Source: Geosiphon pyriformis (Eukaryota; Glomeromycota; Glomeromycetes; Archaeosporales; Geosiphonaceae). Taken from it: a stretch of DNA of 64,000 nt. Made by a program: the position numbers and the translations under genes. Below the pieces are notes generated by a model. That model worked only from the letters and a program-made list of their open reading frames with translations. It was not told the origin of the DNA and did not search any database. This document shows positions 12,832-60,646 of this stretch, piece by piece. Position 1 is the first letter of the stretch; each line of letters begins with the position of its first letter. The stretch lies in the NCBI GenBank assembly GCA_016748015.1, contig JAAOMT010000175.1:346212-410211 (forward strand), written 5' to 3'.

Positions 12832-12864
<33 letters not shown>

Positions 12865-30963: not shown

Positions 30964-30975
30964 TAAACAATTACA
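30964..30975 (+). repeat. Target-site duplication of LINE A, left
   Basis: TAAACAATTACA is repeated exactly at 37734-37745 directly after the element's A-rich tail. Confidence 0.85.
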
Positions 30976-31044
30976 AAAACTTCTTTCTTTCCTTCATCCA
31001 AAATTCCCAAAAAAGAGTCAAAAGTTTTTTTGAAAGAAGTTTTT
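30975..31044 (+). promoter_or_regulatory. 5' UTR inverted repeat of LINE A
   Basis: AAAAACTTCTTTC (30975-30987) and its exact complement GAAAGAAGTTTTT (31032-31044) could form a 13-bp stem with a 44-base loop. The same pair occurs in copy C (41749-41761 and 41806-41818), while the loop has diverged. Confidence 0.6.
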
Positions 31045-32913
31045 ACCATTCAGTACGATAAATCAAAACCGTTTTTTGATTACAAAGCCACTGTTGGCTC
31101 TGTTATTGCTGTTATGAAAAAGACTGCTAAAGTTTCTGGTTCTGAGAGTGGTTTTAAAGTGGTTGTATCAAGGAAAAAGAGGAAGGGAGGTGTGTTGGCA
31201 GAGGGTGTTGATAATGGAAGGGTTGCTGCTGAAGTTCCTGGTGTTTGTTCATGGAGTTTGAAGACTGGTAACACTATGGAATCTGAGAGTATTGACATGG
31301 AAGAAGAATGCTTGGTGGAAGAAACCAGTGTGGACTATAGTGATGATGGTCTTTTTGTGGGAGAGGATCCTGATCAAACACCTAGAGGTTTGTGTGTGAA
31401 GACCAAAAAGGTATTAGGGAAGCCATTGGGTGTGATTGATTATGATGCTGTCGATGCGGATGGTGATGTGTTGGATGAGTTTCTTCTTCTACTGCCTCTT
31501 TTTTCAGTCAAGCCATCCATTCAGGTGCCTGTTCGCAAGTCCTTCACTTTGGATATTGATCTGGTGACGGTAGTAAGTAAATCCTCTTAGGAAAAAGTCA
31601 ATTTTGTTAGAAAAATCTTTTCAGGTGTAAATGGTTTTGGGGGGGCCTCTACCCCCTTAAAATTTGGTGGGATCATTCGGGCCACTTTCACTTCTGAAGA
31701 GGTGATGATAACTGCAGCTAATCTGGCTAATGACCATGGTGTAGTGGTAAACACCAATCTCAAGCACCCTGTCAACAATCGTACAAATCGGGCTATTGTG
31801 CTGAAAAAAATTCCTGTGGGAACTTCTTTGGAGGCTGTGCGTACGGCTGTAGCCGAATTTGGTATTATTAAGTCGATCAAAATGCAGCTGGTGGGTTTAT
31901 GGCAAAAGGTGATCATCGAATTGGAAGATCAAGACCAGGCTGATTTTCTGGCCTCTAAGTGGTCTATCTTTATTGGGAAGAACGCAATTCGGGTGGCCAG
32001 GGCTGATATCGACAAACAATCGTGGGATGCCAGGGATAATTTTAGGGCTTTGCTATATACTCTTCTCATGGGAACCACTGCTCATGATTTGTGAGATTTT
32101 ATTGGTTCTATTGGTGGGAAAACTTGCTTCATCAATTGCAATTCCGTCAGTTATTCTCATGCCCACTGTGCCACTGTGTGTTTTGGCTTGGAAGTAGAAT
32201 TAGTTAATGCAATGACAATGATTCCAGTTATAAAGAGCTTTGGTCTCCATTGGTTCCGTCTTTTTTTAGCTTCATGTGCAGTTTGTGAGAAATTTGGTCA
32301 TACTTCTTTTGGTTGCAGAACAGTCAAGGGTGCTGGAATTGTAGGAGGCAGAAGGGCTCCCCTTTCGGTTTAGGACCAATCCAGATTGGCAAAAATTTAT
32401 GTAAAGAGATCTGCGCCTATCTCTCATCCTTTGGCTTTTGATGGTAAAACTTGGGCATCGGTGGTTAGCACTCCCTCTGCTCCCTCTCTCTTTGGTGGTA
32501 AGGCAAGTTTTGGTTCCATCATTGATGGTAAACCTACCCCTCCTGTTGCAAAAGATCCGAAAAAAAGACTGGTCAGTATCGAAGATGGTCTTGTCAGTCT
32601 CGCAAAACAAATTGATGGGTTGGCCAAGAGGTTAGATTTGCTTGTGCTAGTGGTTCCCCAGCCTGGTCACGGATGCCGGCTGCCAGTGGTCGCCCCGCCA
32701 CAAAATTCGGAAAGTAGTGTGACATTGGATATGGACTTGAGTATGGCTGATGGCCATGAGTCTGCCACAATTGTGGGTTCATCCACGTCCTCCCATGTTG
32801 TCAAGTTGGAAAATATGTTGGAGGGCCTCTCCAAATCTGTGTTGATCTTGTCCACTTGTTTCAATAGTCTGGCTTTGGCTGGTGGTGCGAACTTCCAATC
32901 CCCCTCCCAATGA
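31000..32913 (+). pseudogene. LINE A ORF1 (nucleic-acid-binding, zinc knuckle), three nonsense codons
   Basis: One continuous frame is interrupted only by TAG 31588, TGA 32092 and TAG 32371 (first bases). The frame is open from about 31000 but the first ATG is about 31114, so the true start is unclear. It contains a charged N-terminal region, a middle region with an RNA-recognition-like pattern (WAVVLKEIP-type motif; here AIVLKKIP, then GIIKSIKMQL), and a CX2CX4HX4C knuckle (CAVC, H, C at about 32275-32320). ORF1 proteins of LINEs coat the element RNA and chaperone priming. Its stop overlaps the ORF2 ATG as ATGA at 32910-32913. Copy C encodes the same protein with an equally good knuckle (CAGCGKLGHTLLAC). 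Confidence 0.85.
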
Positions 32914-35900: not shown

Positions 35901-37598
35901 TTTCTGGCAGGCATGGTTCGTGTTCTTGTTGATTGCAATGTGTCTCTGGGTGGCTCTTTGGTTAGTTCTTTTTGGTCTCATGGTGGAGTGCCTATGTCTG
36001 AGGTTCTGGGCGAGTCAAGGTTTCTCAAGTTTCTCCCTTCTCTTTAGTGGTATGGTATTGCCTTTGTGAATCAATTTCGTGACCGTCATAGTGCTGTCTA
36101 TGATTGGTACACTTTCAAGTAGTGGAAGAGATTGGACCCCCGTGGCCCAGTTCCTGAATGGTTCAAGCATTCTGTTTTGTTTCTCAATAGTGTAGGATCT
36201 TCTCGCGTTCAGTCTCTAGTTTTGGGGGATGGTAGTCCTTCGAACATTCTTGAATCTGGTGGATTTGTGTCTATTCGTGATTGTCTCTTGGCAACTGGTG
36301 CTAGCAGCCTGTCAGTATATACAGATGGATCTCTTAGTGGTCTTGGCACGGTTGGCTGTAGAGCTGGTGCTGCTGTTTTTTTTGAGGACATTGGTTTGGG
36401 TTTGGGTGTAAGGGTTTTGGGTTTGATGTCGTCTACTTTGGCGGAATTGCAGGCTGTTGTTTTAGCTCTGGAGTGTGTTCCCCTGTCAAGCTCTGTTTGT
36501 TTGTTCTCAGATAGTCAATTGGCGTTGGATGCTTGCAGGTCGGAGTTAGATCTGGTGTGTCCCAATTTTCGTAATCAGTGTTGGGTCGAACGTCGTCATA
36601 TTGTCAACATAATTCGCAGTAAGAAGTTAAGGGTTAGCTTTCGCAAGGTGAAGGGTCATTCTGGTGTTTTGGGAAATGAGCATGCCGATGCGATCGCTGG
36701 TGCCGCTTCTCTCTCCAATTGGTATCTTCCCTCTTGCTTGAGTAAGCACTTCTTGGCAGCTGATAGTGATGTTGTTTCTGGAAATTTGAGGCATTTTGTT
36801 CGTAATATTTATCATTCTATTTGTCGTGTGCGATGGGAGGTTGGTTCCAGTTCTGGGGTTTTGGTTGGCAGCTTGTCTTCTGAGGTTGATTGGCCCCGTT
36901 TGTCATTGGTGTGGCATCCTGATTTGCACATGGCTGCAGGATTTACCAGCAGGTATTTGTCCAGTGTGCGTACTTATTTTATGAAGTCTTTGCACCATCA
37001 GTTGCCGGTTGCTGTTCGGAAGTGCCTCTATGATAAACATTATCCTAGTGTGTTGTGCTTGTATTGTGATGAAGTGGAGGTGTCGGATCATGTGTTCTCT
37101 TGCAAGGTTGACAAGTCTGTTCGGCGCCAGTTGCTGAATTCTCATGTAGAGTCCTGGAAGGCGCTTTCTAGTTCATCTCACTCCTCTTCGAATATATTGC
37201 AGCTGTTGTCATCCAGTGTTTCTGATTCCTCTGTGTCTATAGCTCTTTTTAAGGGCTTTGTTTTCAATGGATGGTTTAGTGAGGCTGTTTCCGTCTTTCA
37301 CGACCCCAAGATTGCTGTTTTGGAGATTGTCAAGTTTGTGTGCTCTCTTGGTCTTGCTTTCAGGGAGGATGTCTGGTCGATTCGTGCTAAGCATTATGTG
37401 TATATAGAGAAGAATGGACTGATCCTGCTAGATGGTTCAGCCGTCGTTTCGGTTCATGGTTTGGCTTCGAGGTTCTCTGCAGGAGTGGTTAGGTTACTTG
37501 GCATTACTAGTGCTTTAGGTGTTCATTTTGGTTTTCGCAAGGCTTGCTTGTTCTTTTCAGATATAGGTGAATCAGTGTCGGTTCATATAGCTGCGTAG
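32910..37598 (+). pseudogene. LINE A ORF2: endonuclease, reverse transcriptase, RNase H; nine nonsense codons
   Basis: A single frame of about 1,560 codons has no frameshift but stops at 32925, 34632, 34749, 35070, 35418, 35625, 35841, 36045 and 36120. The endonuclease (32930-33640) shows TCNVRGMNN, TETKL, GNFNED in place of the usual GDFN, DYVFVS and DMDHQAV. RT (34400-35450) shows DMQKVYDSVGW, GLDQGEVFSSLL and the catalytic FVDD box (about 35213). RNase H (36310-36710) shows YTDGS, AELQA, SDSQ and NEHADA, so all four acidic residues are present. The C-terminus has CLYC-x7-H-x4-C (about 37060-37100). Together these enzymes would nick the target and copy the RNA there. Most stops replace codons that are Trp, Gln or Arg in other copies or by context. 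Confidence 0.9.
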
Positions 37599-37607
37599 TG
37601 TTGTTCT

Positions 37608-37628
37608 GATCAGCCCGAGTGGCTGGTC
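37608..37628 (+). promoter_or_regulatory. Conserved 3' UTR hairpin of the LINE family
   Basis: GATCAGCC, loop CGAGT, GGCTGGTC forms an eight-pair stem with one G-U. It starts 10 bases after the ORF2 stop. Equivalent stems are at 49237-49257 (C), 53054-53074 (D), 26111-26091 (E, minus) and 28496-28476 (F, minus), and in weaker form in B near 40380. It is followed by a second short palindrome, GCATGATTCATGC, at about 37644-37656. It is a plausible recognition structure for the element's own reverse transcriptase. Confidence 0.65.
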
Positions 37629-37733
37629 ATGTGTAGAAAGTGCATGATTCATGCCTAGTTTAGATCAATTCCTTGATGTATAGTGCTAGGTTGTGTTTGG
37701 ACCTCACTCGTTAAGCAATAATAATAAAAAAAA

Positions 37734-37745
37734 TAAACAATTACA
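37734..37745 (+). repeat. Target-site duplication of LINE A, right
   Basis: This is an exact copy of 30964-30975. Confidence 0.85.
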
Positions 37746-38924
37746 CAAATTAAACAGTAATTATTAAAGAAATTTATATAAAAATATTAAGAAAGATTAT
37801 AAAAGTTGTATTAACTAAATTTATTATAATTAAATTAATTAAAATATAATTAATAAAGCTACAACAAAAAGCCATTATGGATTAAATAATTAGAATCAAG
37901 CTGATTTTTTGGTATCTTAATGATTTATTTTTATTAAAAAAGATATAGTTTGTATAATTAAAATAAATATTAATAAACAATTATAAATACCAAAAATATA
38001 TATAAAGTATTAATCTATAATCTTTTAATGAATATAACTGTTATTATAAGTAAATTTTTAAAATAGTTAGATTATTTTTATAATATAATACTTAAGTTGA
38101 TTATTGTTATTATTTAACAATTTTTATATAATAAACAAAAAGTTATTGTAATTATAAATAATACTTAATATTAGTTTTTTTTAATATAATAACCAGTTTA
38201 TTTTGGTATTTGTACTTTTTAATAAGCAATTTTAGTTTTAATAATTATATCTACACTTTTTTTTGGTGTTTTTTATTAAGTAATTTTTGACATTATAATT
38301 TTAGTATTTTTTTTTAATTAATAAATAAAATAAAATAAACAAACAAAAAAAGTAATAATAAAATAGTAATTAGTATTTTAATATTATTAAATTAATATTA
38401 ATAATACTAATAGCATTAATATAAATAGTTTTAAGTTTTAATAAATTAAGTCTAAATTTATAGATTAATAAGATTTGAATATAATTAATAAATATATTTT
38501 ATTAAAAATAATTATAATTAATTAAAGTTATAATAGAAAAATAAAGTAGTTTTTAATTAAATTTGTCTGGTTTTAAAATAATTTGTCTTTTTGGCTTTTA
38601 ATATTTTTATTATATATATATATTTTTATAATACAAAATTTCTGAAATTTTTTAAGTTATGTTTTAATAATTTTTTATTTTGTTATTGATTATTTATAGT
38701 ATTATTATTTTTTTGTTTTTCTATATAAATAATAATATCTGTTATTTTTGCAAACACATAAAATATTTAATTAATTAATATTGAATGTAAATAATACATA
38801 AAGCATATAAAAATAATTATTATATATTACTTTAAATATTCAAAAATTAGTATATACTGTTATTATATCAATATATAATTATATATTAAAATACAAAAAC
38901 TTATTAACAATAACCAATAATAAT
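37746..38924. other. AT desert
   Basis: Sequence is near-pure A/T with no gene seen. It is the other half of the desert split by LINE A. Confidence 0.5.
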
Positions 38925-40512
38925 CAATTCTGTTCCTAACTGGTTTGGGTGTTTTGTCAGCTTTTTTAATGATGTGGCTTCTTTTTTTGCTTGTTTGGCT
39001 TCTTTGGGTGTTTCTAAATCTTCAAATGTTTTAAAAACTAGTGAATTTAGACTTGCACATAATTGCTTATTGGATATTATGGCTGACAGTCTTTTTGTTT
39101 ATACTGATGGATTTCTGAAGAAATTAGAAAGTGTGGATGTTAGAGCTGGTATAACAGTTTATTTTGAAAATATTAATCTGGGTTTAAAGGTCAGAGTTTC
39201 AGGTCTGATGTTTTTTACTCTGGCAGAATTGCAGGCTGTTGCATTGGCTCTCAAGTGTGTTCTCTCTCTTAGCTCGATTAGTCTTTTTACAAACAGTCAG
39301 ACTGTTTTGGATGTATGCAAATTGGAATTAAGTTTAGTGTATCTAAATTTTCAGAATTGGTGTTGGATTGAATATTGGCACATGATAAAGATTGTTCAGA
39401 AAAAGAACTTAAACATTAGTTGGCACAAAGTAAAAGAGCATTTGGATGTCTCAGATAATATGTGTGCTGATGTGTTTGCTGATGTGGCTTCTTTTTCTTT
39501 ATGGTGTTTTTCTTCCTGGTTGAATAAACATTATATTTTGGCTAAAGATAATATTGTTTCTGGCAATTTTAGGCATTTTGTTCATAAAATCTTTTGGTCT
39601 ATTTATTGTGCATATTGGAAAGTTAGTTTTGGTTCTAGAGTAGTTTGTTGTTGGATGTTAATTGATCTAGCTTATTTTTGGTATGGCATTTTGATTTGCA
39701 CATGGCTGCTGGTTTCACTAGTAGACCAACTGTTGGCATTTATACATATTTTATAAAGGCTTTATACTATCAGCTGCTAGTTGCTGTTCAGAAATGCCTG
39801 TATAACAAATATTATCCAAGTGTGTTATGTCTGTATTATGGTAATATTGAGATCTTAGATTATGCTTTTTTTTGTGTGGTTAATAATTCTGTTTGCCATT
39901 GATTGTTGAATGCCTATGTGATTGCTTGGGGTGTGTTTTCTGGTCTTTTCTGCTTTTTTTCATGTATGTCTCAATTGCTATCCTTCTGTGTTTTAAATAT
40001 GGCAGTATGTATGACTCTTTACAAAGGTTTTGTCTTTAATAATTGGCTTTAAGAGACTTTGTTTATCTTTAAAGATTTAAAGGTTGCAGATCAGAAGATT
40101 GTGGACTTTGTGTGTGACTTCTGCTTTGCTTTTAGAGATGAGGTTTGAGTTGTCTGTGCTGAGCATCATGCATTTATAGAAAAAAATGGACTAATATCAC
40201 ATAATAATTTGGCTCTGGTTTTGGTTTCTGTGCTGCTCTCAATGCTTTTTGCTGATGTGGTTAAGTTGCTTAGTATTGTTAAGACATTTGGTACTAGCTT
40301 TGGATTTCATAAGTCTCACTTGTTTTTTTTGAGTATTGAGAATTCTGTTTCTGTTTATATAAATACTTAATGTTGTCTTAATTGGCTTAAATAGCTGGTC
40401 ATATATAAAAAATGCATGATTCATGCCTAATTTAGATCAATTATTTGATGTATTGTATTAGGTAGTATTTGGATCTCATTTGTTAAATAGTAAAAATAAT
40501 AATAATAATAAT
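38925..40512 (+). mobile_element. LINE copy B, 3' fragment
   Basis: The copy begins just before RNase H (SVPNWF aligning with PVPEWF of copy A) and runs to the 3' UTR and an (AAT)n tail at about 40490-40512. A frame of 260 codons (38974-39756) is still open and keeps YTDG, AELQA and a degraded SDSQ (TNSQ). GHSG is EHLD and the last catalytic motif NE-AD has become NMCAD. After 39700 the frame shifts and stops accumulate. Wording is strongly AT-shifted relative to copy A. Confidence 0.85.
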
Positions 40513-41706
40513 CAATCTAAATTAATATTTTAAATCTCAAAATTAGTATATATAAAATCAAAACATGATGGTTCAAAAAAACTTAAATCATATAAAACTC
40601 AATTAACAAACTAATTCAAACTACTAAAATTATCAACAAACTTATTTTAATATACCAAAAAACTTGAATCTTAGAAATAATAATAATAAAAACATAATTA
40701 AAGTTTAAAATTAAAAATTAAATTAAATAATACTATTAGCAATTCTTACAAAAAACAATAATTTTACAATTATTATTTTTTTGAATTAAAAAAAAATAAA
40801 GCCATGTTTAATAAAGCATATTAAATAAAAAATACTTAATTATTACTATATATATAAAAGTAATAGTAAATAATATTTTAATTAAATTTATTTTAAATAA
40901 TAGATTTGTTAAAATATTATAATAATTCAACTAGTAAATTAATTAAATTTTAATATTAATTATGCTATAATATTATAAATTATAACAATTAATAAAAGTA
41001 TTAAGTTACTATATAGTAAAATTAATTTATTCTCTTTTAAGATTAATAAAATTTTTATATTTACAAAAGTATTAATAATAAATACTACATAATATTAAGT
41101 TTTAATAAAAAATAATTAGTTAACAAAAACAAATACCATTTTGAACTAAACTACACAAAAACAATTTATTAGTTCTAATAATTATCATATAAAAATTTTA
41201 GTTATTTATAACTACTTTTAAAAATTCAGTATTAATTAAAAACTTATTTTTAAATACAAAAAAAACCCAGTCTTATTAGTTTTTAAAACTTATTAGCTCT
41301 TATAAATTAATAATTAAAAAACAGAACTATTAGCCATATTAACTTAAATAAATAAAATAAGATTTAAATAAAGTTAAATAACATTATAAAAAAATCACTA
41401 ATAATACAAACTAAAGCTAAAATATTTGGTTTATAAGAAAAAGTTTTTGTTTTTGTAAAATAAAATTAATAATTAATTATTTATCAAAAATCAAAAATAC
41501 AAAATTATTAATAAAATTTTGAAAATATTATTTTTTATAATATTTAAAAAATTAATTATTATAATAACTTATATTTTTAATAATTTTATTTAATATATTA
41601 ATATTTAATAAAATTAATAATAAATTTAAACATTATTATACAATTTAAAATAAAATTAATTAATTAATATATATTTTTTTTCAATTAATATTATATATAA
41701 ATTGCT
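40513..41706. other. AT desert
   Basis: No gene or recognisable element is seen. Confidence 0.5.
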
Positions 41707-41720
41707 AAAATTTTATAGTA
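41707..41720 (+). repeat. Probable target-site duplication of LINE C, left
   Basis: AAAATTTTATAGTA recurs at 49357-49370 after the element's A-tail. The AT-rich wording makes chance matches easier, so this is probable only. Confidence 0.55.
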
Positions 41721-41852
41721 AAGAATATTAAAACAATTAAAAGAAATAAAAAACTTCTTTCTCTCGTTCATCCCAAATTCACAAAAAAGAGCTAAAGTAT
41801 TTTTTGAAAGAAGTTTTTTTCCATCATTCAGTCTGTTAAATCCAAACTGTTT

Positions 41853-43688
41853 TTGCTTGATTACAAAGCCACTATTGGCCCTAGTATTGCCGTTTTAAAC
41901 AAGTTTATCATGGAATCTAGTTTCAATATTAGTGTAAAGTCTGCTGAGTCTAAAAAGAAGAGAAGGAGTGATGCTTTGAAGGATAATATAGGTAATAGAA
42001 AATTTACTGCTACTAAGGTGCCAAGTAGTCATTCATGGGGTTCTAAGACAGATGACATCATTGAATCAGATAGTGTGAACATGGAAAAAAAATTTTTGGT
42101 TGAGGAAACTAGCTTTGATTATGGAGAAGGTGACATTTTTGCTGGTGAAGACTTGGAACAAACTCCTAAAAGTTTGAAAATTCTGACCAAGAGAGCACTG
42201 GGTAAGCCACTAGGGAAGATTGACTTTTTGGGCAATGATAGTGATAACATTCTCTTGGACAAATCTGTAGTTCTCCCTCCTCCTTTAAGAAACTTGGTCA
42301 ATATTTCTGTTAAAAAATCTTTTGCTATAGACATTGGTTTGGACAATGTTGTTGGAAAATCTGCTTAGGAAAAGCTTATGGTAATCAGAAAGTTATTTTC
42401 TAAAATCAATGGTTTTGGAAGGGTCTCTACCCCCTTAAAATTTGCTGGAATTATCAAAGTAACATTCACTTCTGAAATGAGTTTGGCACAGGCTTCAAAA
42501 AAGGCTGAAGAAACAAAGATCTTGGTAAATACCAATCTCAAAAAATTCTCTGAATGTTCAAATTGGGCTGTGGTGTTAAAGGAAATTCCAATTGAAACAT
42601 CAACAGAGACTGTGCATGCTGCGCTATCTGAATTTGGATTAATTAAGTCGATTAAGATGCAGTTGGTAAGGCTGTGGCAAAAAGTGGTGGTTGAATTTGA
42701 ACAGATTAATCATGCTGATTTGGTTGTGGCGAAATAGTTTATTCTGATTGGGAAAGATGCAGTGCGTGTTGCTAGATCTGACATGGACAAAAAATCTTGG
42801 AATGCATAAGATGTTTACAAAGCCCTTTTGTACACTCTGCCAATGGGAACTAATGTACATGATATTTGTAATTATGTTGCTTTAGTAGATGAAAAAACTT
42901 GTGTAATTGACTATTATCCAGTTTTTTATGCCTGGGCCAGATGCACTACTGTTTGTTTTGATTTTGTTGAATCATTGAATGCTGTCATAAAGACCACACC
43001 TGTTCTAAAAAAGGCCAATCTGCACTGGTCTTGTCTTGTTTTAGCCAAGTGTGCTGGGTGTGGGAAATTGGGCCATACATTATTGGCCTGTCTTGTTGGT
43101 GAGAAAAAGAATATTTCTTCTGGTGCTTTATTATGGAAAACTTTCTCGAACTCGGATAAAAATAAACTGGCTGCCATATATGCCAAATGCTCAGCTCCAG
43201 TTGCTTGTCCTGTTTCTTTTAATGGTGTCTCATGGGCACAAATTGCTGGTGAGTCTTCTTTCCCTTCTTCTCCTGGTCAGAATATTTTGTTAAAAGCTGG
43301 CTTCTCTTTGAAAATGAAGTCTATCCCACTGGTGTCTTTGGAATTGAATGATAGGTTTGCCATTCTTAAATGCAGTCTTACCAGTCTCGCAGAGTGTGTT
43401 AACATACTGGCTAAAAAGTTAGACACACCTAAGCCAACAGTTTCCCAGCTTAACCCTAGATATCAGCCATTGGTGATCCCTTTATCACAGAATCAAGGGA
43501 TGAATATAGTGATGAATGAGGGTTCAGGTGTGGCCACTGATGGTAAAACTGTTTCAGAAATGATGGTTTTTAATCCTACAGTTATCTCGAAAATAGAGAA
43601 AACATTGAACAATTTTTTGATCACAGTTATGAGCTTTTTGGTTAAAATAGACAATGCTGGTTTGGTTTTTACTTCTCTTCCTTTTTAA
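41853..43688 (+). pseudogene. LINE C ORF1, zinc-knuckle protein with nonsense codons
   Basis: One frame has stops at TAG 42366, TAG 42735 and TAA 42807. The knuckle CAGCGKLGHTLLAC (about 43051-43092) is intact. The frame ends TTT TAA, and the A of TAA is the A of the ORF2 ATG (TAATG at 43686-43690), a stop-start overlap like that of copy A. The TAG at 42366 sits at the same place as TAG 31588 of copy A. Confidence 0.8.
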
Positions 43689-46340
43689 TGAGTGATATGA
43701 TCTGAAAAGTTGCGACTTGTAATGTTAGAGGAATGAACAATCTTGCAAAACAGGATAATATCATTTGTTGACATAAGGAAAAGGACAATTTAGTTTTTAT
43801 TTTCATGGAATCAAAGTTAAAAAGAAAGGTTCACCCCTGGATTGTCAACAAATTTGATGGTCTGCAGGTGTTTACCACTGGTTTAGAAGCTGGTTATCTG
43901 GGTGCTGGTGTTGTGGTTGTCATGAACTCTTTTTTGGCAAGACATGTATACAAAATTTCAGAAATGCCTGGTCAGCTCCTGTTTATCAAGTTGTTTTTCA
44001 AAAATAAACTTTCAGTGTTAATTTTGGGGCTGTACACTGGTGTCTCTTTGGTGGCTCGGTTTTCTCAGGCTGGCAATATCAACTCTCTTATAGTAAAGGC
44101 TGTCAATGAATCTTTTTTTGTCATTTTCGAAGGTGATTTTAATAAAGACAGTTCTCATAAGTATGCAAGTTTCAAGAAATGCCTGGATTTTGGTTTAGTT
44201 AACATCTTAGATAGGAGCTCTTATGGAAAGTCACCAATGTGGTCCAATTTTCAAGATGTAGTTAAGATAATTGATTATGTGCTCATTTCTTCAAACTTGG
44301 TCAATGCAGTGGTAAGTTGTGGTGTGTTTGGTGTTGGGGAATACTTTGATACTGATCATCAGGCTGTCTTAGTGTTGGTGGATTTAGGTGGTTTACTCGA
44401 TGTCCGATTAAACTTTGTTTACAGACAGACAAATAAGGATTATTGAAAGTACAATTGCAAAGGTGCAGATAATATTAAATGGGCCAAATTTAAGGATGAT
44501 ACAGTGGCAAATGCTACTATGTTCCATGACAATTTTTTTGTGGCCAGAATGCATTTGGACTTGGATGCAATATAGGTTGCTCTTCATAAAGTGTTATGTC
44601 TGTCAGCTGAGGCAGTTTTTAAGAGAAAGTGGTTCAAGAACTATGATTGTGTTTTTGTTAAGAAGTCATCCAAGTTTCACAAGCTGGAGCTCTTAGTGTT
44701 GAAGTTAGTTGAGGTGTCTTATTTAGATTCTTTTGAAGAATTTATGTCCTTGCTTGACAAGTAGGAAAGTTTAGATTTAGTTAATGTGGTAAAGTCTTTT
44801 TTTCTGTCAGATTCTTCCTTTGATGCCATTCGGTTGGTTCTGTCCAAGGTTAGAAAGTCATATTACTTTTCCAAAATATCAGAAGTGGAATGTGTTAGGA
44901 AATCTAGTATCAGGTTAGCAATAGATAAGAGGATAGAAAGTTCGAATTGAACAAGAGTCATACTATTAGGAGTGTGCTGGAATGTCCTCTCCACAAAGTG
45001 ACTTTGAATCATCTGGTTATGGATAATGAATTGGTTTTGGAACCTGATTTGGTTAGAACCAAAGTGAATGTGATCATGGAAGAATGGACTAGAAAGCACA
45101 ATGTGGTTTCTGATGTCTTTGGTGTATGGTGTCACTAATATCAGCTTTTGAAGTATGTTTTTGATGCCACTTTTTCTGGTGTGATGTGCTCAATTGACTT
45201 CAATGAGATGTCTGATGTCATCTTAAATCTGTCTGATGAGAAAGCAGCTGGTCTTTCTGGTATCTCAAATAAGTTATGGAAACATTATGACAAATCAGTT
45301 TTGGATATGCTTTTGGTGCTTTTGAACTTTTGCTTGGATTGTGAATCTGTTTCTGGGTCTTGGAAGGAGGCTTGGGTGTTGATGATCTCCAAACCATATG
45401 AATAGGAGGGTGTTCTCATGAACACCCATTCTATTGCTTTGATTAAGACAGCTTGCAAAATTCTTTCCAAGATTCTTTTGGACAAGATTTCTTTTGCATG
45501 CAGTAAGTTTAATGTTCTAAGAGGGGATAATTTTTTTGTTATAAAAGATATGACCACACAGTCTCTTATTTTTGCTATTGAATTAGTTGTTGAAAATGTC
45601 TTGGAAAAAAACCATGAGCTGTGACTGGTCTTGTAGAACATGTAGAAAGCTTATGATTTTGTTGGTTGATAGCATCTAAGGGAGAGTTTAGTCAGGATAA
45701 AGATGTGTGACAAGTTTATTCGGTTTTTTGGTATTCACAATGGTTGAGTCAACAAAGTTATGACAAATTTTGGATTAACCAATGGATATTAAGTGCATGA
45801 TGATTTGGACCAAGGGGAGGTGTTTTTTTCTCTTCTTTGGCACATATTTTATGATCCTCTTTTGTGTGAAGTCAAAAGACAAGAAAGTGTGTGTGGATAC
45901 AGATTGGACTCTTATTTCATAACCAGGACTGGTTGCTCTGAATCTTAGGCTGGTTTGACTTCTTTTTTTACTGCAGGTGCTTTTGTTAATAACATAATTT
46001 GGGTTGATAGCAGCCAGGCTGCTATGCAACATATTCTCAATATTGCTAGCAAATTTTTTTGGATCAATGATATTTTGATCAATAATAACAAGACAGTGGC
46101 CATTCTCATTAATTGCAGAGTTTCTGACTCTTGTTTGCTAATCAGTGGTTTGCCTATTTCAATAACCAAGAAAGGGGAGTCTTATTAGTATCTGGGCATT
46201 TTCTTGTCTACTGAGGGTTTGTCAAAGCCTAGCTTGGCTAAAGCTCATCTGGATGTCCAATTTTTCACCAATTTTGTGCTGAGAAAGACTGTTTCTAACA
46301 AACAATTCTTATATTTGGTGTTGGTGGTATTACAGATGAT

Positions 46341-47203
46341 TATTTGGGGTCTCAAGTCAAATAATAAATCTGTAACTTGGTGCTTAGTTGGTATTCAGGT
46401 ATTGATATCTGAAGGTTTTGGTTGTGGAGTTTTTTGTATAATGAACAAAGATTTAATAGTTGTTTTCAGTAGCCTCCTGGAATTGCAATTCTGTCAAATT
46501 TCTTTTTCAGTGTGGTGGCTGGTAATCCTTCTGGTAAGTTATTCTCAAATTTATGAGTGTTCTACCCTTGTTTCACAGGTTTTTTACCAGTTCCTATGAT
46601 GTCTGTATCTTAGTGCTTAATCCTTAATCAATTTAGTAAAACCAAAGAAATAACAAAAAGAAATAAAAACAAACAAAAGAAGATAAAGAAATAAATGGCA
46701 GCAATTGCAAGTTAGTATCCCGTCAATAGCTGTGATCAAAAGCTATTGTTCTAGTGTGGTTAAGTATCAATTACTATCAACATGAAGTGTTAATAGTGGA
46801 GAGTGGGTTGAGATAGTGGATAATTATTTATTAATATTTGTGATGTAGAAGGTTTTGAACTAATGGATTCTGCTCTTTCTACTTTTAATGCTATCACTAT
46901 ATATACATAATTGATGTTCTACAAGATCACTCATATTTCCAAGCAATGTGCTATAATTTTTTAAGTAATGCTCACATTGCTGAGTGATATGCTCTCATTT
47001 TCTAACATTACTCCATATTGCTGAGCAATATGCCATGTTTTCTGACATTGCTTCATATTGCTAAGCAATGTGCTGTGATTTCTATCATTGCTTTACATTG
47101 CTGAGCAATGTGCTTACGTGCTATATACTATTCGCTTATTGGTCTACTATTTTCCCTATATCTGTCTTTTTTTTATGAGTAACAGCAGTTCTTTATCTTA
47201 TTA
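46341..47203. mobile_element. Unidentified insertion of about 0.86 kb in LINE C
   Basis: Copies A and D are continuous where C is split. The site sequence, gcagttctgcatctgatagtt in copy A, appears in diverged form on both sides of the insert (about 46328-46350 and 47186-47208), as expected from a target duplication of about 20 bases. The insert has no long frame that I recognise. It contains a run rich in AAATAA/AAAGAAATAA (46640-46695) and the minisatellite at 46943-47118. It may be a non-autonomous element. Confidence 0.6.
46943..47118 (+). repeat. 40-42 bp minisatellite of palindromic units
   Basis: About four and a half tandem units of 40-42 bases are present, each ending in and beginning with parts of the palindrome ATTGCT-g-AGCAAT (for example at about 47096-47108). 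The units differ by a few bases. Confidence 0.75.
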
Positions 47204-49356
47204 TTGCCTATAGAACTCAGTTTAGTTTTGTTTTTATTAATGTGTATACAAAGTAGGTCACAATAATTCGCAAGGGTTTAAAATTCAAATCTGGCTTGCT
47301 GTTTGACTTTCCCAATGATGCTATTCACCACTCTTCTCTGTATGGTTTGAAGTCTTTTAAACAGGTTCAGGCTGAAAGCAAGTCAACTTTTGTTGTTAGT
47401 TTTGTCAATTCTATTGGTATCTTGAGCCATTTGTTTGCACATAGATCACATAACTTGCAGGTTCTCAGCTGGCGCTCTTATCACCTCTTGCTTTTCTCTT
47501 TTCGTATTAATGTCAATCCTTTAGATAATTTTTTGGCTGGTGTTGTCCAGATTTTTTTGGGGTGTAATTTTTCTCTAGGTGGTCTTGTGACCAATACTTT
47601 TCATTTTCAAAATGGAACTCCTATGTCTGTCATTCTTGGTGAGCCCACTTTTTACAAATGTGTCTCCTTACTTCAGTATTATGGAATTGTCTTTGTTAAG
47701 CAGCTTCACAATTATACTGGTTCTGTTTTCAAATAAATGACTTTTAAGTGGTAAAAGAGATTGGACTCTTGGGGCCCAGTTTCTTATTGGTTTGATGTTT
47801 CTGTTTGCTTTCTGAATGGTTTTAAGCCATCTTTTGTTTGCAATCTTTTGTTGCCAGATATTGGTTTGTCTAATGTTTTTGAGTCTCATGAGTTTGAAGT
47901 TGTGTGCAGTTGTTTGTTGAGGGTTAATTCAGATCATCTTTCTTTGTTTACAGATGGTTCTCTAAGTGGGCTGGATACTTCTGATATAAAAGCTAGTGCT
48001 GCTGTTTTTTTTAAGGACATTAATTTGAGTTTGGGTGTAGAAGTGTCCAGATTGGTTTCTTCTACTATGGTAGAGTTGCAGGCCATTGCTCTGGCTCTTG
48101 AGTGTGTTCCTCTTTCTCATTTAGTCAACTTGTTTTCAGACAGCCAGGCTGCTTTAGATGTATGCAAATTTGAATCCATGCTGATCTGTCCAGATTTTAG
48201 GAATTGGTGTTGGATCAAGTATTGTCATATTACTAATGTCATTTGTCACAAGAATTTGGTAGTTAATTGGATTAAAGTTAAGGGTCACTTTGGTGTCTTG
48301 GGCAATAAGTGTGCTGATGCTTTTGCTGGAGCTGCTGCACTTTTTGATATGTGTCTTCCTTACATGATTGATGAACATTTTCTCAGAGCTGGTGGTACTA
48401 TAGTGTCTGGTAATTCTAAGCATTTTGTTCACAGTGTTTTTTGATCAATTTACCATGTGTGTTAGGAGATTGGTTCTGGTTCTTGGGTCTTGATAGACAG
48501 TCTGTATGCTGATGTTAATTGGTTTAGATCTTCTTTGGTGTAGCATCCAGATTTTCATTTGGCTACTGGTTTTATTAGTACTCAAACTGCTGGCTTTCAG
48601 ACATATTTTATGAAGGCATTGCATCATCATCTTCTGGTTGCTGTACATAAGTGTTTTTATAACAGAAGTTACCCTAGTGTGATATGTCTATTCTGTGATG
48701 ATGTCAAGGTCTCAGACCATGTGTTTTTTTGCCCATTTGATGCTGCTAATCATGCTTGGTTGGTAGAAGTTTATGCATTTGCTTGGGAGACATGTTCAGG
48801 TTTATCTTGCTCTTCTTTATGTGTTTCGCAGTTGCTTTTTACTTGTGTCTCCAATGTTGGTGTTGGTACAGCTCTGTGTAAGGGCTTTGTTTTCAAGGAG
48901 TAATATCGTGAATTTGTTGCTGTTTTTAAAGATTCTAAGATTGCAGCTTGGAATATTATGGCCTTTGTATGTGAATTTTGTCTTACATTTCATAATAATG
49001 TTTGGCTAGTGCATGCTAAGCACTGGGCTGTTATAGAGAAAGGTGACTTGATTTTACATAATGGTTTTGTTTCTGTTTCAATCTCTGGTTTCTCTTTGGT
49101 GCTTTTGGCCAGTATGGTTAGGTTGTTGGGTATTGTGGATGTATTTGGTGTTAGTTTTGGGTTTCATAAATCTTGTTTATTCTTTTCAGATATAAGTGAC
49201 ATGGTTTCAGTACATATAAGTGCCTAGTGTTGTTCTGACTAGCCTGAGTGACTGGTCACGTGTAGAAAATGCATGATTCACACTTAGTTTAGATCAATTG
49301 TATAATGTATTGTACTAAGCAGTATTTGAATCTTACTTGTTAAATTGAAGAAAAAA

Positions 49357-49370
49357 AAAATTTTATAGTA
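49357..49370 (+). repeat. Probable target-site duplication of LINE C, right
   Basis: This is the partner of 41707-41720. Confidence 0.55.
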
Positions 49371-50077
49371 TAAATTAGAATAAACCAATTTTTTTGTTAA
49401 AAATAACAATTAATTGAACAAAATTTGGGTTTTATTAATATTTTAAATATTGTTTTAAAAATTTTTAAAAATTTTAAAACAGCAAAAAATAATTTTTAAT
49501 TAATAACAATAAACCAATAATTAATATTATTTAAATAATACCAAAATTAAAATTTATAAAATCTTAAAACTTAGAATAATTATTGTTAAACTTTTTAAGT
49601 AAGCTAATTTTTGGTTTATAAGTAATAGTTTATTTTTATATTATTTGTAATATTTTAACAATTTTAACAAAATTAATTAATTTTAAAAACATAATAAGTA
49701 CTTAAAAAAATCAAACTATTAAAATTAAGTAAAAAATTAACATAAAACAAATATAATATTAAAAATAAAAATAAAATAAAAAATAAATTTGATTAAATTA
49801 ATAAACTAATTTGTAAATATTTTAAAACAATTTGGAATTTTTTTAAATAATCTGTATTTTATAATATATAAGTTGTTTATAATATTAAAATTAATAAGTT
49901 TTAATGTAAATTTAAATAATTATTATATGTAAATTGTGTTTATTATGTAATATTTTTTCTTATATATTTATAAATTTAATTAATTACAATTAATTAAAAT
50001 ATTATTAAAAACAAAAATATTATATTTTAAAAATACAAAAATCAATAAAATTATATAAATTAATTATCTTAAATTAT
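49371..50077. other. AT desert
   Basis: No gene or element is recognised between LINE copies C and D. Confidence 0.5.
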
Positions 50078-53000
50078 ATAGAAGGGTGTTCTCATGAATA
50101 CCCGTCCTATTGCTTTGGTTGAGACGGCTTGCAAAATCCTTTCTAAAGTGCTTTCAGACAGAATTTCATCGGCTTGTAGTGTTTTTGACATTCTGAGAGG
50201 GATAATTTTTCTGTTTTAAAAGGCATGACCACGCAGTCTCCTATTTTCACTATTGGATCAGTTATTGAAGATGCTTTGAAGAAGAACCGAGAGTTGTGGC
50301 TGGTCTTATAGAATATGTGAAAGGCTTATGATTTGGTTGGCTGGGAGCATCTAAGGAAGAGCTTGGTCAGAATAAAAATGTGTAACAAATTCATTTGGTT
50401 TTTTAGTAGCATCCACAATAATCAGGTCAACAGAGTTATGACAGATTTTGGGTTGACTGATGGATATTGGGTACATGATGGTTTGGATCAAAGGAAGGTG
50501 TTTTCTCCTCTTCTCTGGCACATATTTTATGATCCTCTTTTGTGTAAAGTCAAGAGACAAGAAAGTGTATGTGGATACAAGTTAGACTCTCGTTTTGTTG
50601 CCAATACTAATTGCGCTGAATCTCGGGCTGGTTTGACTTTTTTTCTCGCTGCTGGTGCTTTTGTCGATGATACGATTTGAATTGGTAGCAGCCAGGCTGC
50701 CACCCAACATATTCTCAATGTTGCTAGTGAGTTTTTTCAAGTCAATAACATTTCGATCAATAATGACAAAACAGTGGCCATTCCCATTAATTGCAGAGTT
50801 TCCAGTCTTCATTTGTTGATCAGTGGTTTGCCTATTTCGATAGCCAAAAGGGGGGAGCCTCATTGGTACTTGGGTATCTTTCTGTCTACTGAGGGTTTGT
50901 CGAAGCCTAGCTTGGCTAAGGCACACTTGGATGTCCGATTTTTCACCAACCTTGTTCTGAGAAAGGCTATCTCTGATAAGCAGTTCTCGTATTTGGTGTC
51001 AGCGGTTCTTCATCCCATAGTTGTCTACAGGACTCAGTTTAGTTTTGTTTCTATTAGTGTGTATGCGAAATGGGACGCTATGATTCATAAAGATTTGAAG
51101 TCCAAATCTGGCTTGCCACTTAACTTTCCCAATGATGCTATTCATTATCCTTCTCTGTATGAGTTGAAATCTTTTGAGCAGATTCAGGCTGAGAGCAAGT
51201 CAGCTGCTGTTGTTTGTTTTGCCAATTCTGTGGGTATTTTGGACCGCCTGTTCACACATAGGTCTCATAATTTACAGGTTCTCAGCTGGCGCCCTTGTCA
51301 CCCCCTGCTTTTCCCTTCTCATATTAATGTCAGTCCTTTGAATAATTTTTTGGCTGGTGTTGTCCGGATTTTTTTGGGTTGTGACCTCTCTCTGGGTGGT
51401 CTCGTGACCAATGTTTTTCATTTTCAAAAGGGGACCCCAATGTCTATTGTTCTTGGCGAGTTAGCTTTTTATAAATATGTCTTTTCGCTTCAGTGATATG
51501 GAATTGTCTTTGTTAAGCAGCTTTGTGATCGAACTGGTTCTATTTTTAAATGGTGGACTTTCAAGCGGTGGAAGAAACTGAACCCTCGGGGCCCGATTCC
51601 TGATTGGTTCAATGCTGTTGTTCGCTTTTTGTCTGGTTCTGGGTCATCTCCTGTTTGTTCTCTTTTGCCACTGAATGTTGACTTGTCTGACGTACTTGAA
51701 TCTTGCGAGTTTGATGTTGTTTGCAATTGCTTATTGGAGGTTGATTCCGATCACCTTTTTGTGTTTATGGATGGTTTTTTGTGTGGGCTGGGTACTCTTG
51801 GTATGAAGGCTGGCGCTGTTGTTTTTTTTGAGAACATTGATTTGGGTTTAGGTGTGGAAGTTTCTGGTTTGGTTTCTTCTACCATGACGGAGCTGCAGGC
51901 CATTGCTTTGGCTCTCAAGTGTGTCCCTCCTTCTTGTTCAGTTAATCTGTTTTCAGACAGCCAGACTGCTTTGGATGCATGCAGGTCAGAGTTAATGTTG
52001 GGGTGTCCAGATTTTAGGAATTGGTGTTGGGTCAAATGCTGCCATATTTCTAATGTTATTCATCACAAAAATTTGGATGTTGATTGGATTAAAGTTAGAG
52101 GTCACTCTGGAGTCTTGGGCAATGAGCGTGCTGACACTTTGGCTAGGACTGCTGTGTCTTTTGGTGTGCATCTTCCTTACAGGATTGATGAACATTTTCT
52201 CAAGGCTGGCAGTACTGTGGTTTTTGGTAATTCTAGGCATTTTGTTCGTAATGTTTTTCACTCTATTCACCATGCACATTGGGAGGTCGGTTCTGGTTCT
52301 CGGGTATTGGTGGACAGCCTATGTGCTGATGTTGATTGGTTCAGGTCATGTTCGGTGTGGCATCCAGACTCTCATTTGGCTGCTGGTTTCACTAATGCAC
52401 ATACTACTGGTTTTCGAACGTATTTTATGAAGACATTGCATCATCATCTTCCTGTTGCTGTGCGAAAGCATCTTTACGATAAGGGGTACCCCAGTGTGAT
52501 GTGTTTGTTCTGTGGCAATGTTAAAATTTCAAATCATGTGTTTTCGTGCTCATTCAATGCTGGTGATCATGCCCGGTTGATGAATGCTTATGCATCTGTT
52601 TGGGAAATGTGCTCAAGTTTATCTCACTCGACTTCATATGTTTTGCAGTCACTTTCTGCTTGCACTTCCAATGCTGTTGTTGGTGCGGCTATATATAAGA
52701 ACTTTGTTTTCAATGAGTGATATTGTGAATTTTTTTCTGTTTTCAAGGACTCTAAAACGGCAGCTCAGAATATCGTGGCATTTGTGCATGATTTTTGTCT
52801 TGCATTCTGTGATAATATTTGGCTGGTTCGTGTGAAACACAGAGCTGTTATGGAGAAGAGTGGCTTGATCCCACGTGATGGTTCTATTCCTGTCTCAGTT
52901 TCTGGTCTTCCTTCGGTACTTTCGTCTAGTGTGGTTAGATTATTGGGTATTGCTGATGCAATTAGTATTGGTTTTGGGTTTCGTAAATCTAGTTTATTCT

Positions 53001-53986: not shown

Positions 53987-56900
53987 TTAATCTATTAATT
54001 TGGCAAAGGCCATCGTATTTTTGGAAAAGTAATCAGCAATCACTCCAAATCCATCATCGGATTCCTCCAACTACAGGTCGAAAGAAGTATTAGTGAAATC
54101 TCACCCAAAAAAAAAGATAAAATAAACCTCACCTGTTCAAAAAATAAATCATGGTTATCAGCGTTATCCTCCTGAGCGCGCCGAATGTCCACAATCATAC
54201 GATGTTGAATTGCACATTGCGGACATTCTCGGTCAGAGTCTAATAGACACCTTTTTTTATAGATACAAACCATTCGTTATTAATCTTTGATAATTAGGGT
54301 GAGAAGGCGAAAAATCTAGTTACCTTTGATGATAAGAGTGTCGGCAAAGGAAATGGACGGCAGGCAAATCGAGGTTCGTATGACATCCGGTACATTTCGT
54401 GACCTGAAAAATTCGGGCACTTAACCAAAATACGGAGAAAGTTATTTGATGAAATGACTATTGATCAATGTGATGAGAAAAGTTAATTGAAAGGTCCTTA
54501 CACGCTCTTTAATTCTTGAATTTCTTTCCTCTTTTTTTCTGTTTCTTCACGATAACTTGCTATTAATTTACGGTCAGCTTCACAATCTTTACGCTCTAAT
54601 TCAATTCGGCGTCTCATATGTTCCTTCACCATTCCCAAAGTGGCTACTGAATTCCTGCTTAAAGCTTGAACAACTTGCAGTGGTGGTAATAAATTATGTT
54701 GATCAATGTAATCCAGGATTTCTAAAAGTTCTTTTGTCGAAGAATCCAAAGTTGCGGGGGAAGAAGAAAAATATGTTAAAGTTAAGGGGTACAAGGATTC
54801 ATCTTGGGGTCTGTTTAGCGTAAATATTGAAAAATATTTGTTGTATTAAATGTCAAAAAAAAATTTAACATCAACAAAGCATTATAATCATTCTTATTTA
54901 CCCGTATTTCTGCAAATTCTCGATAACTTTTTTAGTATTGTCTTTAGCCATATAGAACCTCAGAATATCTTCATACATGCGCATTTTTTCATACAAGTAT
55001 ACGATTCCATCATCAAATTGAGCCAGATGACAAAGCACCAATGCTTGATTGGTATCATATGAAATCTACAGAGAACAATGGGGATTATTAAAAAGGAAAC
55101 AATTATGATCATATAAAAGGTTAAGGGACATAGTTTTCACCTCTTCGTCCTGCAACAATTTCAGAGTTTTATCCTTCCGGACTAATCGCTCCTTTACCCG
55201 CTCTGTTTCAGTCGCAACAGAGAAGACACCAGGTGCACCGTTCTTCCTGCCTTTGTTGTCTTTAGCATTAACTACTGGAGGAAGGTAATCTTCTGATAAA
55301 TATAATTCTAAAAGAGTGTTCCAAACTGCCTTCTTCTCTTCCCCTTCATTATCATTAATTTCATCTAGTTCATCTTCTAAGGCCCCTGATAGGCTGTGAT
55401 CGTCCATGGGCTGTTGCTGAAAACCGCTAATATTACTATTTATTTCTGAGGAAGCAGAAGGTTTCTTTGCGACTCCGAACCCACCCCATCTTTTTTCTGA
55501 TACTTGCTCCAAAAATTGTATCAAGTAATTGGGTTGGTCAACAAATAATGACATGAAAATGCGAACTGATGGTGGTTTATACGTAGGAATACCCTTCTCC
55601 TTCGGAATTGGGGCTTGCGGGGAAGGGGGGGGTGGAGGAGGTTGTTCTGCTTGCATGACGTGGGCAAATTGCAAGAAAGTTTGAGGATAAGAAGTGACTG
55701 GTACAGTAGGTGCTTGGACGACCAAATCATCTGGAGTTTCACTTCGCTGACCAGACATGAATAAATTCCCGGTACATAGGTCTATTAAGAGGGTAGTTGA
55801 AGCTTGGGGAAGATGATTGAGAAGAACCTTGCCATATTTTTGCAAATTACGGTCGGCCTGTAATTGAAATTAATTAAACTTGGTTGGTAATGACGAAATA
55901 AATAGTATTGGAGCCGAGAAAAGACACACCTCAAATGGACCCAATTTTCGGATGTACTCTAAAGCATTCTCATAATCTTTCACATCTTCAATTTGAATTT
56001 TAAGATATCTTGGGCAAACAAAATAATAGTAAGTTTTTACCTTGGGAAGGTCTTTAGCACATATACATAAAAACAGAATCGCAAAGCTTACAGGTCGTGC
56101 TCATCAAATTTTTTAGCCAAATATACGGCGTGTTCATAATATCCTGCTTGCCGACAAACTTTAATCGCCGTTTCAAGATCAAAAGTGAGCTCATTATCCG
56201 TCTAAGCGACGAAAGCAAGTCATATTTATTTCAACTTGCGATAATGTCCAAATTATTCAATAATGGTATTACCTTTATGAATTGATCTAATCGAGCCACA
56301 TCCTTTAATTTTGTATAACAATTCAACAACAAAGTAGTATGATCTGCATTCGCGAGATTATGCGAATGCAACTCTTGCAGGTAATTGACAAGATTATGAA
56401 TCCGTTGAGCATCAAGGAACTATCAAGTCACGGTTCAGTGAGAGTGTAAAAGGAAAAATCAAAGAGCCAGGAATTAGTCGTAATATTTTTGGAAATAAAT
56501 ACCTTACGGATAACATATGAAGGTTCGAGTTGCCCTATTGTTCGTATATATTGGGCCATAGCGGCATCATAGTCTGCTTTATCACTTCGTATCCATATAA
56601 AATTTTTATCAATCAATGTCCGTAAAGCCAGTCTAGGGGAATTTAGGGCTAAAAGATTGATCCAAGTTCAGACCTGTATAAGTGGTCCCCATATTTCTTA
56701 AAAATTTCAGAAATACTGGAATCGTCATATTTTTGACTGTGAGCTAAATTGATGGCGAGTTGATACATATTTTTTTTGAAAAGCAGTTCAAGTTTGGTGG
56801 GTGTGTCTTTTTCTTCTAAACGATAAAGCTTTGAAAAAATTTATATAAGTATAAACAATTAAAAAAGTTTCTTATAAAACAAAGCTTTATAATTAAACTG

Positions 56901-58570
56901 ACCTTCCCATCCATTCCCAAAAGAAAAACAGCTCCCCATTCACAAGTAATGGTTCTGACACCTTGAGAAAAGTTACCTACGTATGCAATAAACCTGTTAA
57001 CAGTATCAAATATTGTTACTTTAGTTAGCTCATAAGGAGTCGATGGTTTGGTAGTCGGACCGAGAGATAACGCGGGTCGAGTTAAAGCAGTCAGTTTCTT
57101 AGGCTGTGAGACCGGAGGTGATACAATAATGAGGTAAGATTTGAACCATATCATCGATGTTTTTGACCCTATTATGTTCAATTTGACCAAGTTAATGGTA
57201 TTCTTTGTATTAATTAAAATTAAAAGACTGGGTTTTACCTTCATAAACAAAACAGGGACCTCTGCCATCAGATGTGTAAAAATAAATGGCCTTAAGAAAA
57301 CACAGAAATATGATAAGAGGTGTGAATTAATTAATATTTAAAAAATCCAAGTAACTTTACTTCATCTCGAGCGATAACCATGTCATGCGTAACATCGCTC
57401 ATTATGGCACAACCCAAATCACAACCCTGTTCGTCGATAATTGCCTAAAAATATCAAAATCATGTCAAAAATAAAGGTACAATAATTTGAGCTGAAGATT
57501 ATCATTAGTTTATTTCAACAAACCGGAGGAGACCGTCCAGTTGTATTATATGTCAAAATTTTGTTGATGGTGACAATGAAAAGTATGATACTCCTACTCT
57601 CCTCTCTAAACCCAAGTCCTTGATAAAGGAGTGAGTTTTATTCACTTTGGTATTAGATCTTGATGCTCAGAGAAATAATCCCAAAATACCAGTTATTGGC
57701 TCATCACTGTCATGCACAATCCTTTGTTTTGTATATCGATCCCTTGAAATGTCTCCTTTGATTAGAATGACTATACCACTAGTGAATCCGATAGCAATTT
57801 GACTCATATTCTCCATAACAGCAAATGTTGTAACTGGAAATGGCTTTTTGCTATGCTCGACTTTGATGGTACGCTGACAAATCGGTGTCCCTTTCGATTT
57901 ATCTTGTTTGTCAAGATCCCAAATTTTAATTATTGGAGTTGGAGCTATTGGATCATCTTCCTATTAAGAAAACCATCACATAAATGGATAATTAAATATA
58001 TTTGAAAGAAAATTGATTTTATTTACCCCAATTGTCACTAGTAAATTTCTTTGCTTCATTTGCTTCATATGGGTTACCCGTCCACCATCATAAGCCATAA
58101 ATTTTTGCACATTAAAGTTTCTATCGATGATGTACACATATCCTGAGGAGTGTATAAACGGAGTCATAAAGTTAAGCATATTTATATTGTTTAATTCAAT
58201 TTATGAAATATTGAACTCAAATATGTTATATCGGAAATAAAAATTCACAGCACACGATAAAAGGATATCAGCTAGTATTATGTTACCACGACCACTAGTG
58301 CTTATTGACAGATCGGGTCTCTAGAGAAGTTGAAAGGTTAGAATTTAAAGTCTAAGGATTAAGGAATTCAAGGAAATTCATACTTGAAAAATCTGAGGAG
58401 GTTTAGTAGGATCATTGGGATCCTTGATCTGCTGAATGTCAAAAAAGTTGAATTGTCGCCTTTGACGTGGACGATAAAGAGTTAGCACTTAAGCAAAAGT
58501 CATTCAGGAATACATTTAGGAGTTGTGAAAAGTCTTGAATACAAAATTGGTACCATTGCTTGTAAGCCAT
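53987..58570 (-). CDS. VPS11: Vps11, HOPS/CORVET tethering-complex RING protein
   Basis: The twenty-exon model runs from ATG 58570 (MAYKQW joined to RQFNFFD) to TAA 53989-53987, 1,026 residues. Yeast Vps11 is 1,029 and human 941. All junctions are in phase and GT-AG except intron 3 (AT-AC). Order: N-terminal beta-propeller (SGRGNIILAD, KIWDLDKQD, AIGFTSGIVILIKGDISRDR); clathrin-heavy-chain-type helices (YGDHLY, AAMAQYIRTIGQLEPSYVIRK, ANADHTTLLLNCYTKLKD, QAGYYEHAVYLAKK); a linker with six prolines (about 55633); then YREETEKKRKEIQELK and a C-terminal RING (CTGC, CRHSYHQRC, CPQC). Vps11 is a core subunit of the HOPS and CORVET complexes that tether endosomes and vacuoles before fusion. It is head to head with PDI, 338 bp apart. 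Identity is firm; exon ends were read by eye. Confidence 0.95.
58152..58268 (-). other. U12-type AT-AC intron 3 of VPS11
   Basis: On the minus strand the intron starts ATATCCTTTT, a full match to the U12 5' splice consensus, and ends TTTATAC. ATGCTTAAC, resembling the U12 branch site, lies with its adenosine about 20 bases before the end. Splicing G|AC gives LADSSGYVYII, which keeps the residue spacing of the animal Vps11 GDMEGQIWFL segment. The only in-phase GT-AG alternative (donor GTAACA near 58286, acceptor near 58142) would delete this strand. Confidence 0.8.
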
Positions 58571-58908
58571 TTTATTTGAAAAGAGTATTTAAGCGGGGAT
58601 GTATTATTTGAAATGAGTATTCATAATTTTAAACTTTGTCAAAAAGGCTTTAGCAAATCATAGATTCATCATTAAACTTATCCTTTTGGGTTTAGATCGT
58701 GAAAATCAAATTTAGAAAATTTCATACTAACTCCATTACCACGATTTTGAGTGGCGCCTCGGGTAAATTAAAACTTTTTTGATAATAATTTGACCCAATC
58801 AAAACTTGACAACGTAGAAATTCCTTGAACTTCTCGCTCATATTTTGGATATAAACCAAAGTTTTTGATGGCCATACAACCAATTTTATTACTTTTTTAC
58901 AAACAGCA
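58571..58908. promoter_or_regulatory. Shared divergent promoter, VPS11 / PDI
   Basis: These 338 bases separate the two start codons. CCAAT (58795-58799), ten bases, then CAACG with an ACGT core (58810-58815) is a near match to the ER-stress element CCAAT-N9-CCACG. That would suit a PDI gene, but the spacing is off by one and one base differs. Confidence 0.4.
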
Positions 58909-60646
58909 ATGTTTAAAAAAACGCTTGCTGGGTTGGCTTTTCTAGCCTGTTGCTTTCTGACGTTCGCTGAGAATACTGATGTAGTTTCACATGTTATTTC
59001 TCTAACAAAGGACACATTTCATAAAGTTGTAGCTCCCGAAAAACTAATTTTAGTGGAGTTTTTTGCCCCATGGTGTGGTCACTGCAAAGCTTTAGGTAAG
59101 CTGATGCAGTTGATTTAGCTGTCTTTGAACCTTAACAACTCCTTAAAAATCTCAAATCCTTGCAGCCCCGGAATATGAAAAGGCAGCTAAAGCTCTTAAA
59201 GAGCATAACGTCAAATTAGCGAAAGTTGACTGTACGGCAGAGACTGAACTCTGTCAAGAATACGAAGTCAAGGGGTATCCTACTTTGAAGGTGTTCCGAG
59301 AGGGTAATGCAACCGATTATAATGGTGGTCGTAAAGAAGATTTAATTATCAGTTACATGAAGAAGTAAGTATACAGTGATATCTATAGAACCGAATTTGA
59401 CTATATTTAATTCCCTTATTCTTATTTCACACACAGGCAAGCTTTACCACCGGTCTCGGATATTGATTACGAAAAACTTGATAGTTTCAAAGATTCTGAG
59501 AACGTCGTCATTGTCGGCTTCTTTTCTGAAGATAGTCAAGAAGAATACAACACGTTTGTTGAGGTCGCGGAGAATCTCCGCCAAGAATATCTCTTTGGTG
59601 CTACCGGACAAAAGAAAGCTGCCATCAAGGCAGAAGTGGAACCGCCAGTCGTTGTACTTTACAAAAAATTCGATGAACGCAACGTCACACTTAAACCACC
59701 TTTTGACAAAGAACAGCTTACCACATTTATAAAAACAAATTCAGTTCCTTTGTTGGCTGATATTGGACCCGAGAATTACTCTTCATATGTAGACTCTGGA
59801 CTTCCCCTTGCCTTCCTCTTCCATGAAAATGATGAACAAAAAGCTTCTCTCGGTAAAGCAATTGAACCTATTGCTTTGGAATTTAAAGGCAAAGTGAACT
59901 TTGTCTATATCGACGCGAATAAATTCGGTAGCCATGCTGCAAACATTAACCTTAAAGAAGAATGGCCAGCTTTCGGTATTCAAAAACCCGAAGAAGGATT
60001 AAAATATCCCTACGATCAGAAAAAGGAGATAACCACAGAAAACATTCGAACTTTCTTGGAAAAATTTGTCAAGGGTGAGATTCCAGCCAGCATTAAGTCA
60101 GAACCTATCCCAGAGACAAACGATGAACCCGTGTTTGTATTGGTCGCTGACTCTTTTGAAGAAAACGCATATGACAAGACGAAGGATGTCTTGATTGAAT
60201 TTTATGCTCCATGTAAGTTTACACTATAATTCCTTTAGCATTTATCGTTTGATCAAAAAATTAAAATTTCTATATTCGAAGGGTGTGGACATTGCAAAAA
60301 ACTTGCACCCATATACGAGAAACTCGGTAAAGCTTATCAATCCTTCAAGGATCAGATCTTGATCGCAAAAATGGACGCCACAACCAACGATCTCCCTTCC
60401 AGAGTTCCCTTTAAGATTAGCGGGTTCCCAACAATCAAACTTTTCAGAGCTGGGGATAACGAAATCATTGAATATCAAGGAGATCGTACATATGAAAACT
60501 TTATTGAGTTTTTAAATACGAATGGTGCCAACAAAGTTCAAGTGAATACTACCTCTTCTGCCTCTGAAAGCGAGGCAGCTGTACCTCCTTCGGTTGCACC
60601 CATACCTGAAGAAAGCGCTGAAGAACAGAAACACGAGGAGCTATAA
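58909..60646 (+). CDS. PDI1: Protein disulfide isomerase
   Basis: The four-exon model is 58909-59095, 59166-59364, 59437-60212 and 60282-60646, all in phase, 508 residues, the usual PDI length. A signal peptide (hydrophobic [11 protein letters not shown], residues 9-20) is followed by thioredoxin domain a with [10 protein letters not shown] (residues about 53-62), two inactive domains b and b', and domain a' with a second [11 protein letters not shown] Ser/Ala/Pro/Glu-rich acidic tail ends KHEEL, an ER-retrieval signal of the HDEL/KDEL class. The enzyme forms and reshuffles disulfides in the ER lumen. The third intron splits the Trp codon of the second active site (T|GG). It is transcribed away from VPS11. 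Identity is secure. Confidence 0.96.

Follow-up and report, generated by a model that had tools for sequence, protein, structure and literature searches.

We found that a 117-nt segment on the minus strand of the window (the whole 64,000-nucleotide stretch of DNA analyzed here), 58268..58152, is in all likelihood a minor-spliceosome (U12-type) AT-AC intron in a fungal VPS11 gene, removed via U11, U12 and U6atac. The segment constitutes intron 3 of the gene and interrupts the coding sequence in phase 1. We refer to the genome as fungal because it encodes chitin-synthase N-terminal (Chitin_synth_1N) domains.

The host is a complete vacuole-sorting gene, with a coding region at 53987..58570 (-) that comprises 20 exons, encodes 1026 amino acids, and contains the Pfam domains PF23341, PF23266, and PF23356. 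Its identity as VPS11 is given by the match to PF23341 (PEP5_VPS11_N, 8e-135), and the predicted protein aligns with yeast Vps11 (7zu0) at 5e-49. When the whole gene was built, it contained 19 introns, 18 of them GT-AG and one, intron 3, AT-AC. The gene is single-copy, with no second copy or retrocopy, which would have exposed the splice, found in the assembly; a scan of prokaryote genomes returned no relatives of VPS11, as expected. The neighboring gene, at 58908..60646 (+), is protein disulfide isomerase-like with CGHC motifs in its frames; its start lies about 340 bp from VPS11, and the two genes are divergently oriented. Elsewhere in the window, several degenerate retroelement copies with endonuclease-like and RNase H frames occupy 30967..52720 (+), where their GC content is mostly 35-45% compared with about 8-25% in the adjoining AT-rich stretches. 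A 5-kb stretch at 11001..16000 has a GC content of about 8-12% and is devoid of recognizable long frames, and at 5108..8957 (+) a long frame carries approximately 20 Sel1 repeats (24 tandem 108-bp units), with a protein-kinase domain in the frame after it. The Sel1-repeat and kinase genes, together with the AT-rich DNA, would suit a member of Glomeromycotina.

Intron 3 begins with the U12-type 5' splice site ATATCCTTTT (58259..58268, -), an exact 10-base donor that matches RTATCCTT. The branch-site-like element ATGCTTAAC (58171..58179, -) keeps the core CTTAAC and differs from the consensus TTCCTTAAC (TTCCTTRAY) at two of nine positions, with the second A of CTTAAC lying 20 nt upstream of the intron end. 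The 3' end at 58152 on the minus strand reads ...CGTTTATAC, so that the 3' splice site is TAC (58152..58154, -). The first-pass annotation of this DNA had proposed such a donor, a CTTAAC about 20 bases from the end, and an AC terminus, and all three were borne out to the base at 58268..58152 (-). On its own, the donor motif is unexceptional: RTATCCTTT occurs twice in the window compared with about 2.3 occurrences expected by chance; the coincidence is its placement in the gene. When the intron stretch was dinucleotide-shuffled 100,000 times, ATATCCTT appeared within the first 20 nt in 166 shuffles, and in 3 of these a CTTAAC and an in-frame AC were present as well.

Retention of intron 3 leads to a stop codon, and removal of 58268..58152 produces ...GNIILAD-SSGYVYIID..., which keeps both the VPS11 frame and the two-residue spacing of D-SS-G. 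Exon 3 (58269..58320, -) encodes RPDLSISTSGRGNIILA and the first base of D, and exon 4 (58027..58151, -) supplies the remainder of D, then SSGYVYIIDRNFNVQKF.... The alignment with yeast Vps11 has no gap at this junction, in agreement with the earlier claim that splicing here preserves the reading frame and residue spacing. With ATATCCTTTT as the donor, the TAC at 58152 is the only acceptor that restores both.

Among the five end types listed, 52 candidate introns keep the frame open, and only 4 of these are GT-AG. We scored eight splice models, rather than all 52, against the Pfam profile PEP5_VPS11_N, and the AT-AC model ranked at the top of the eight with 449.7 bits; two longer variants reached 436.7-437.6 bits, about 12-13 bits lower. 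A major-spliceosome GT-AG intron would require a donor at 58295, 58292, 58289, or 58286 and an acceptor at 58143. All four donors are in frame and CTCCTCAG would serve well as a U2-type acceptor, but each of these pairs removes the strand NIILADSS or more, with a loss of approximately 9 to 12 residues around a propeller strand and a profile score of 413.1-421.7 bits, 28-37 bits under the AT-AC model; we consider such an intron very improbable. Because all in-frame GT-AG choices lose the strand before the junction, the first-pass claim that any GT-AG choice would run into a stop or cost a conserved strand holds, although the acceptor it placed near 58142 is actually an AG ending at 58143. Use of a GT-AG pair had been named there as an outcome that would overturn the AT-AC reading, and, as judged by sequence, every in-frame pair of this kind yields a worse VPS11.

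Alternatively, the intron could be U12-type with AT-AG ends, keeping the ATATCCTTTT donor and ending with the AG at 58143. Minor introns with AT-AG ends exist, and the model is in frame with a CAG at 58143, but it deletes D-S-S and scores 436.7 bits, 13 bits lower than the AT-AC model. Furthermore, AT-AG pairs are disfavored, and the branch would lie 29 nt from the intron end compared with an optimum of 11-13 nt for U12-type introns (PMC3584512); we give this arrangement as little chance as the GT-AG models. A third possibility concerns the exact borders, because the protein does not separate 58268..58152 from 58266..58150: the junction codon is GAC in one case and GAT in the other, both Asp. 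A U2-type AT-AC intron at 58266..58150 would thus leave the protein identical, and introns of that class exist in other species, but its start, ATCCTT, matches neither consensus, and it ignores the exact U12 donor that begins two bases upstream and that separates the two pairs of borders. This placement is scarcely credible.

The U12-type reading of 58268..58152 presupposes a minor spliceosome, and we searched the genome, which totals 124.7 Mb across 406 contigs, for its components. Genes for U11 (contig C312, 80.9 bits, beginning UAAAAGGG), U12 (contig C150, 55.1 bits, containing GAGUAAGGA), and U6atac (contig C365, 70.9 bits, containing AAAGGAGAGA) all scored over their Rfam cut-offs. The U4atac candidate on contig C191 is full length and carries a 3' AAUUUUUGGA Sm-like site; at 43.7 bits it is under the Rfam cut-off of 53, making it a plausible gene that is weaker than the other minor snRNAs. 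Therefore all four snRNAs, whose absence the first-pass annotation had held to be damaging to its reading, are present, with U4atac below the Rfam cut-off, and the pairing segments of the minor snRNAs are intact. A second U4atac candidate (L004, G000:C282:31527-31660) was rejected as the major U4 snRNA gene, which it matches at 111 bits. The genome also contains genes for two minor-spliceosome proteins, recovered as fragments. Three stretches score above the family cut-off for CENATAC, which acts in human cells to promote AT-AN minor introns (PMC8280824), and the U11-48K fragments comprise its CHHC finger and another conserved segment, with a match to the human U11 snRNP protein (E 2e-10). A search of the CENATAC fragments against solved structures was without a match.

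The calculated pairing of the AT-AC donor with the snRNAs sets it apart from the rest of the gene: among the 19 VPS11 donors, it pairs best with both U11 (-7.4 kcal/mol) and U6atac (-6.6 kcal/mol) and worst with U1 (+1.3). Further AT-AC introns occur in the genome. The pattern ATATCCTT...TCCTTAAC...AC was counted at 5 places, compared with 31 for a backward control and 0 for a permuted pattern; the raw count is therefore no evidence and was rejected as such, and we used only the three places at which conserved domains are joined. At these, full-motif AT-AC introns join XPG_N (1e-30), ATG9 (2e-28), and UQ_con (4e-11) in frame, the last in a ubiquitin-conjugating-like (UBC-like) protein. The other 2 of the 5 places showed no recognizable protein. 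Given the snRNA genes, their pairing segments, the donor pairing, CENATAC, U11-48K, and the three AT-AC introns, minor splicing in this organism is well supported at the sequence level, and the U12-type interpretation first offered for the VPS11 intron is likewise supported.

Several properties of the intron are less typical. The pairing of ATGCTTAAC with U12 is weak and unremarkable among the 19 introns, as computed with a simple duplex model that gives no advantage to the bulged A and uses a predicted U12 segment. The spacing of 20 nt between branch and intron end is over the 11-13 nt optimum, and in the three supporting AT-AC introns this distance is about 12, 15, and 24 nt. Another AC, at 58163, lies 9 nt past the branch A, and its use leads to a frameshift to a stop. 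It is conceivable, as a long shot, that the sub-consensus branch, long spacing, and frameshifting AC make splicing here slow or prone to error, and that the level of VPS11 is tuned in this way through the activity of the minor spliceosome. In the mechanism that we propose, U11 would pair with the ATATCCTTTT donor while U12 would recognize CTTAAC as the branch site by pairing; U6atac would next take the place of U11, and removal of the intron would create GAC (Asp), bringing together the two strands of a hairpin within the beta-propeller at the N terminus of VPS11. That the transcript is actually spliced at these borders, and by the minor spliceosome, we infer from the features described above.

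Minor introns have been described in other fungi. For Rhizopus and Phycomyces, U12-type introns were reported in 2010 (PMC2846911). According to a 2023 survey, the glomeromycete Rhizophagus irregularis has about 205 minor introns, all four minor snRNAs, and a bias of minor introns toward vesicle-transport genes, and Basidiobolus meristosporus has 249 minor introns; VPS11 goes unmentioned in the survey's main text (PMC10639083). The VPS11 intron resembles the minor introns of R. irregularis, as presented there, in its fungal host, its U12 donor and branch-like motifs, and its phase 1, which is favored in that species, and the two genomes are alike in the presence of all four minor snRNAs, with the minor-intron hosts of R. 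irregularis enriched for vesicle transport (PMC10639083). Phycomyces and Rhizopus are similar in being early-diverging fungi with AT-AC U12-type introns and minor snRNAs; unlike here, only a handful were found, with 8-9 and 1 AT-AC introns (PMC2846911). Our literature search found no paper linking VPS11 with minor or U12-type introns.

The novelty implied by the first-pass annotation is weaker than it suggested, as the full minor snRNA set and about 205 minor introns were already published for R. irregularis (PMC10639083). Since a 2023 report had described minor splicing of about 200 introns in that species, the VPS11 intron is a new case within an established class; it fits what is known for some early-diverging fungi and leaves the known picture unchanged. 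Gene finders that consider only GT-AG introns would mis-model this VPS11 gene, and its AT-AC intron is usable as a marker in intron-position comparisons. With our analysis, the few fungi known to retain this machinery gain another genome with a full set of minor snRNAs, along with one well-defined minor intron.
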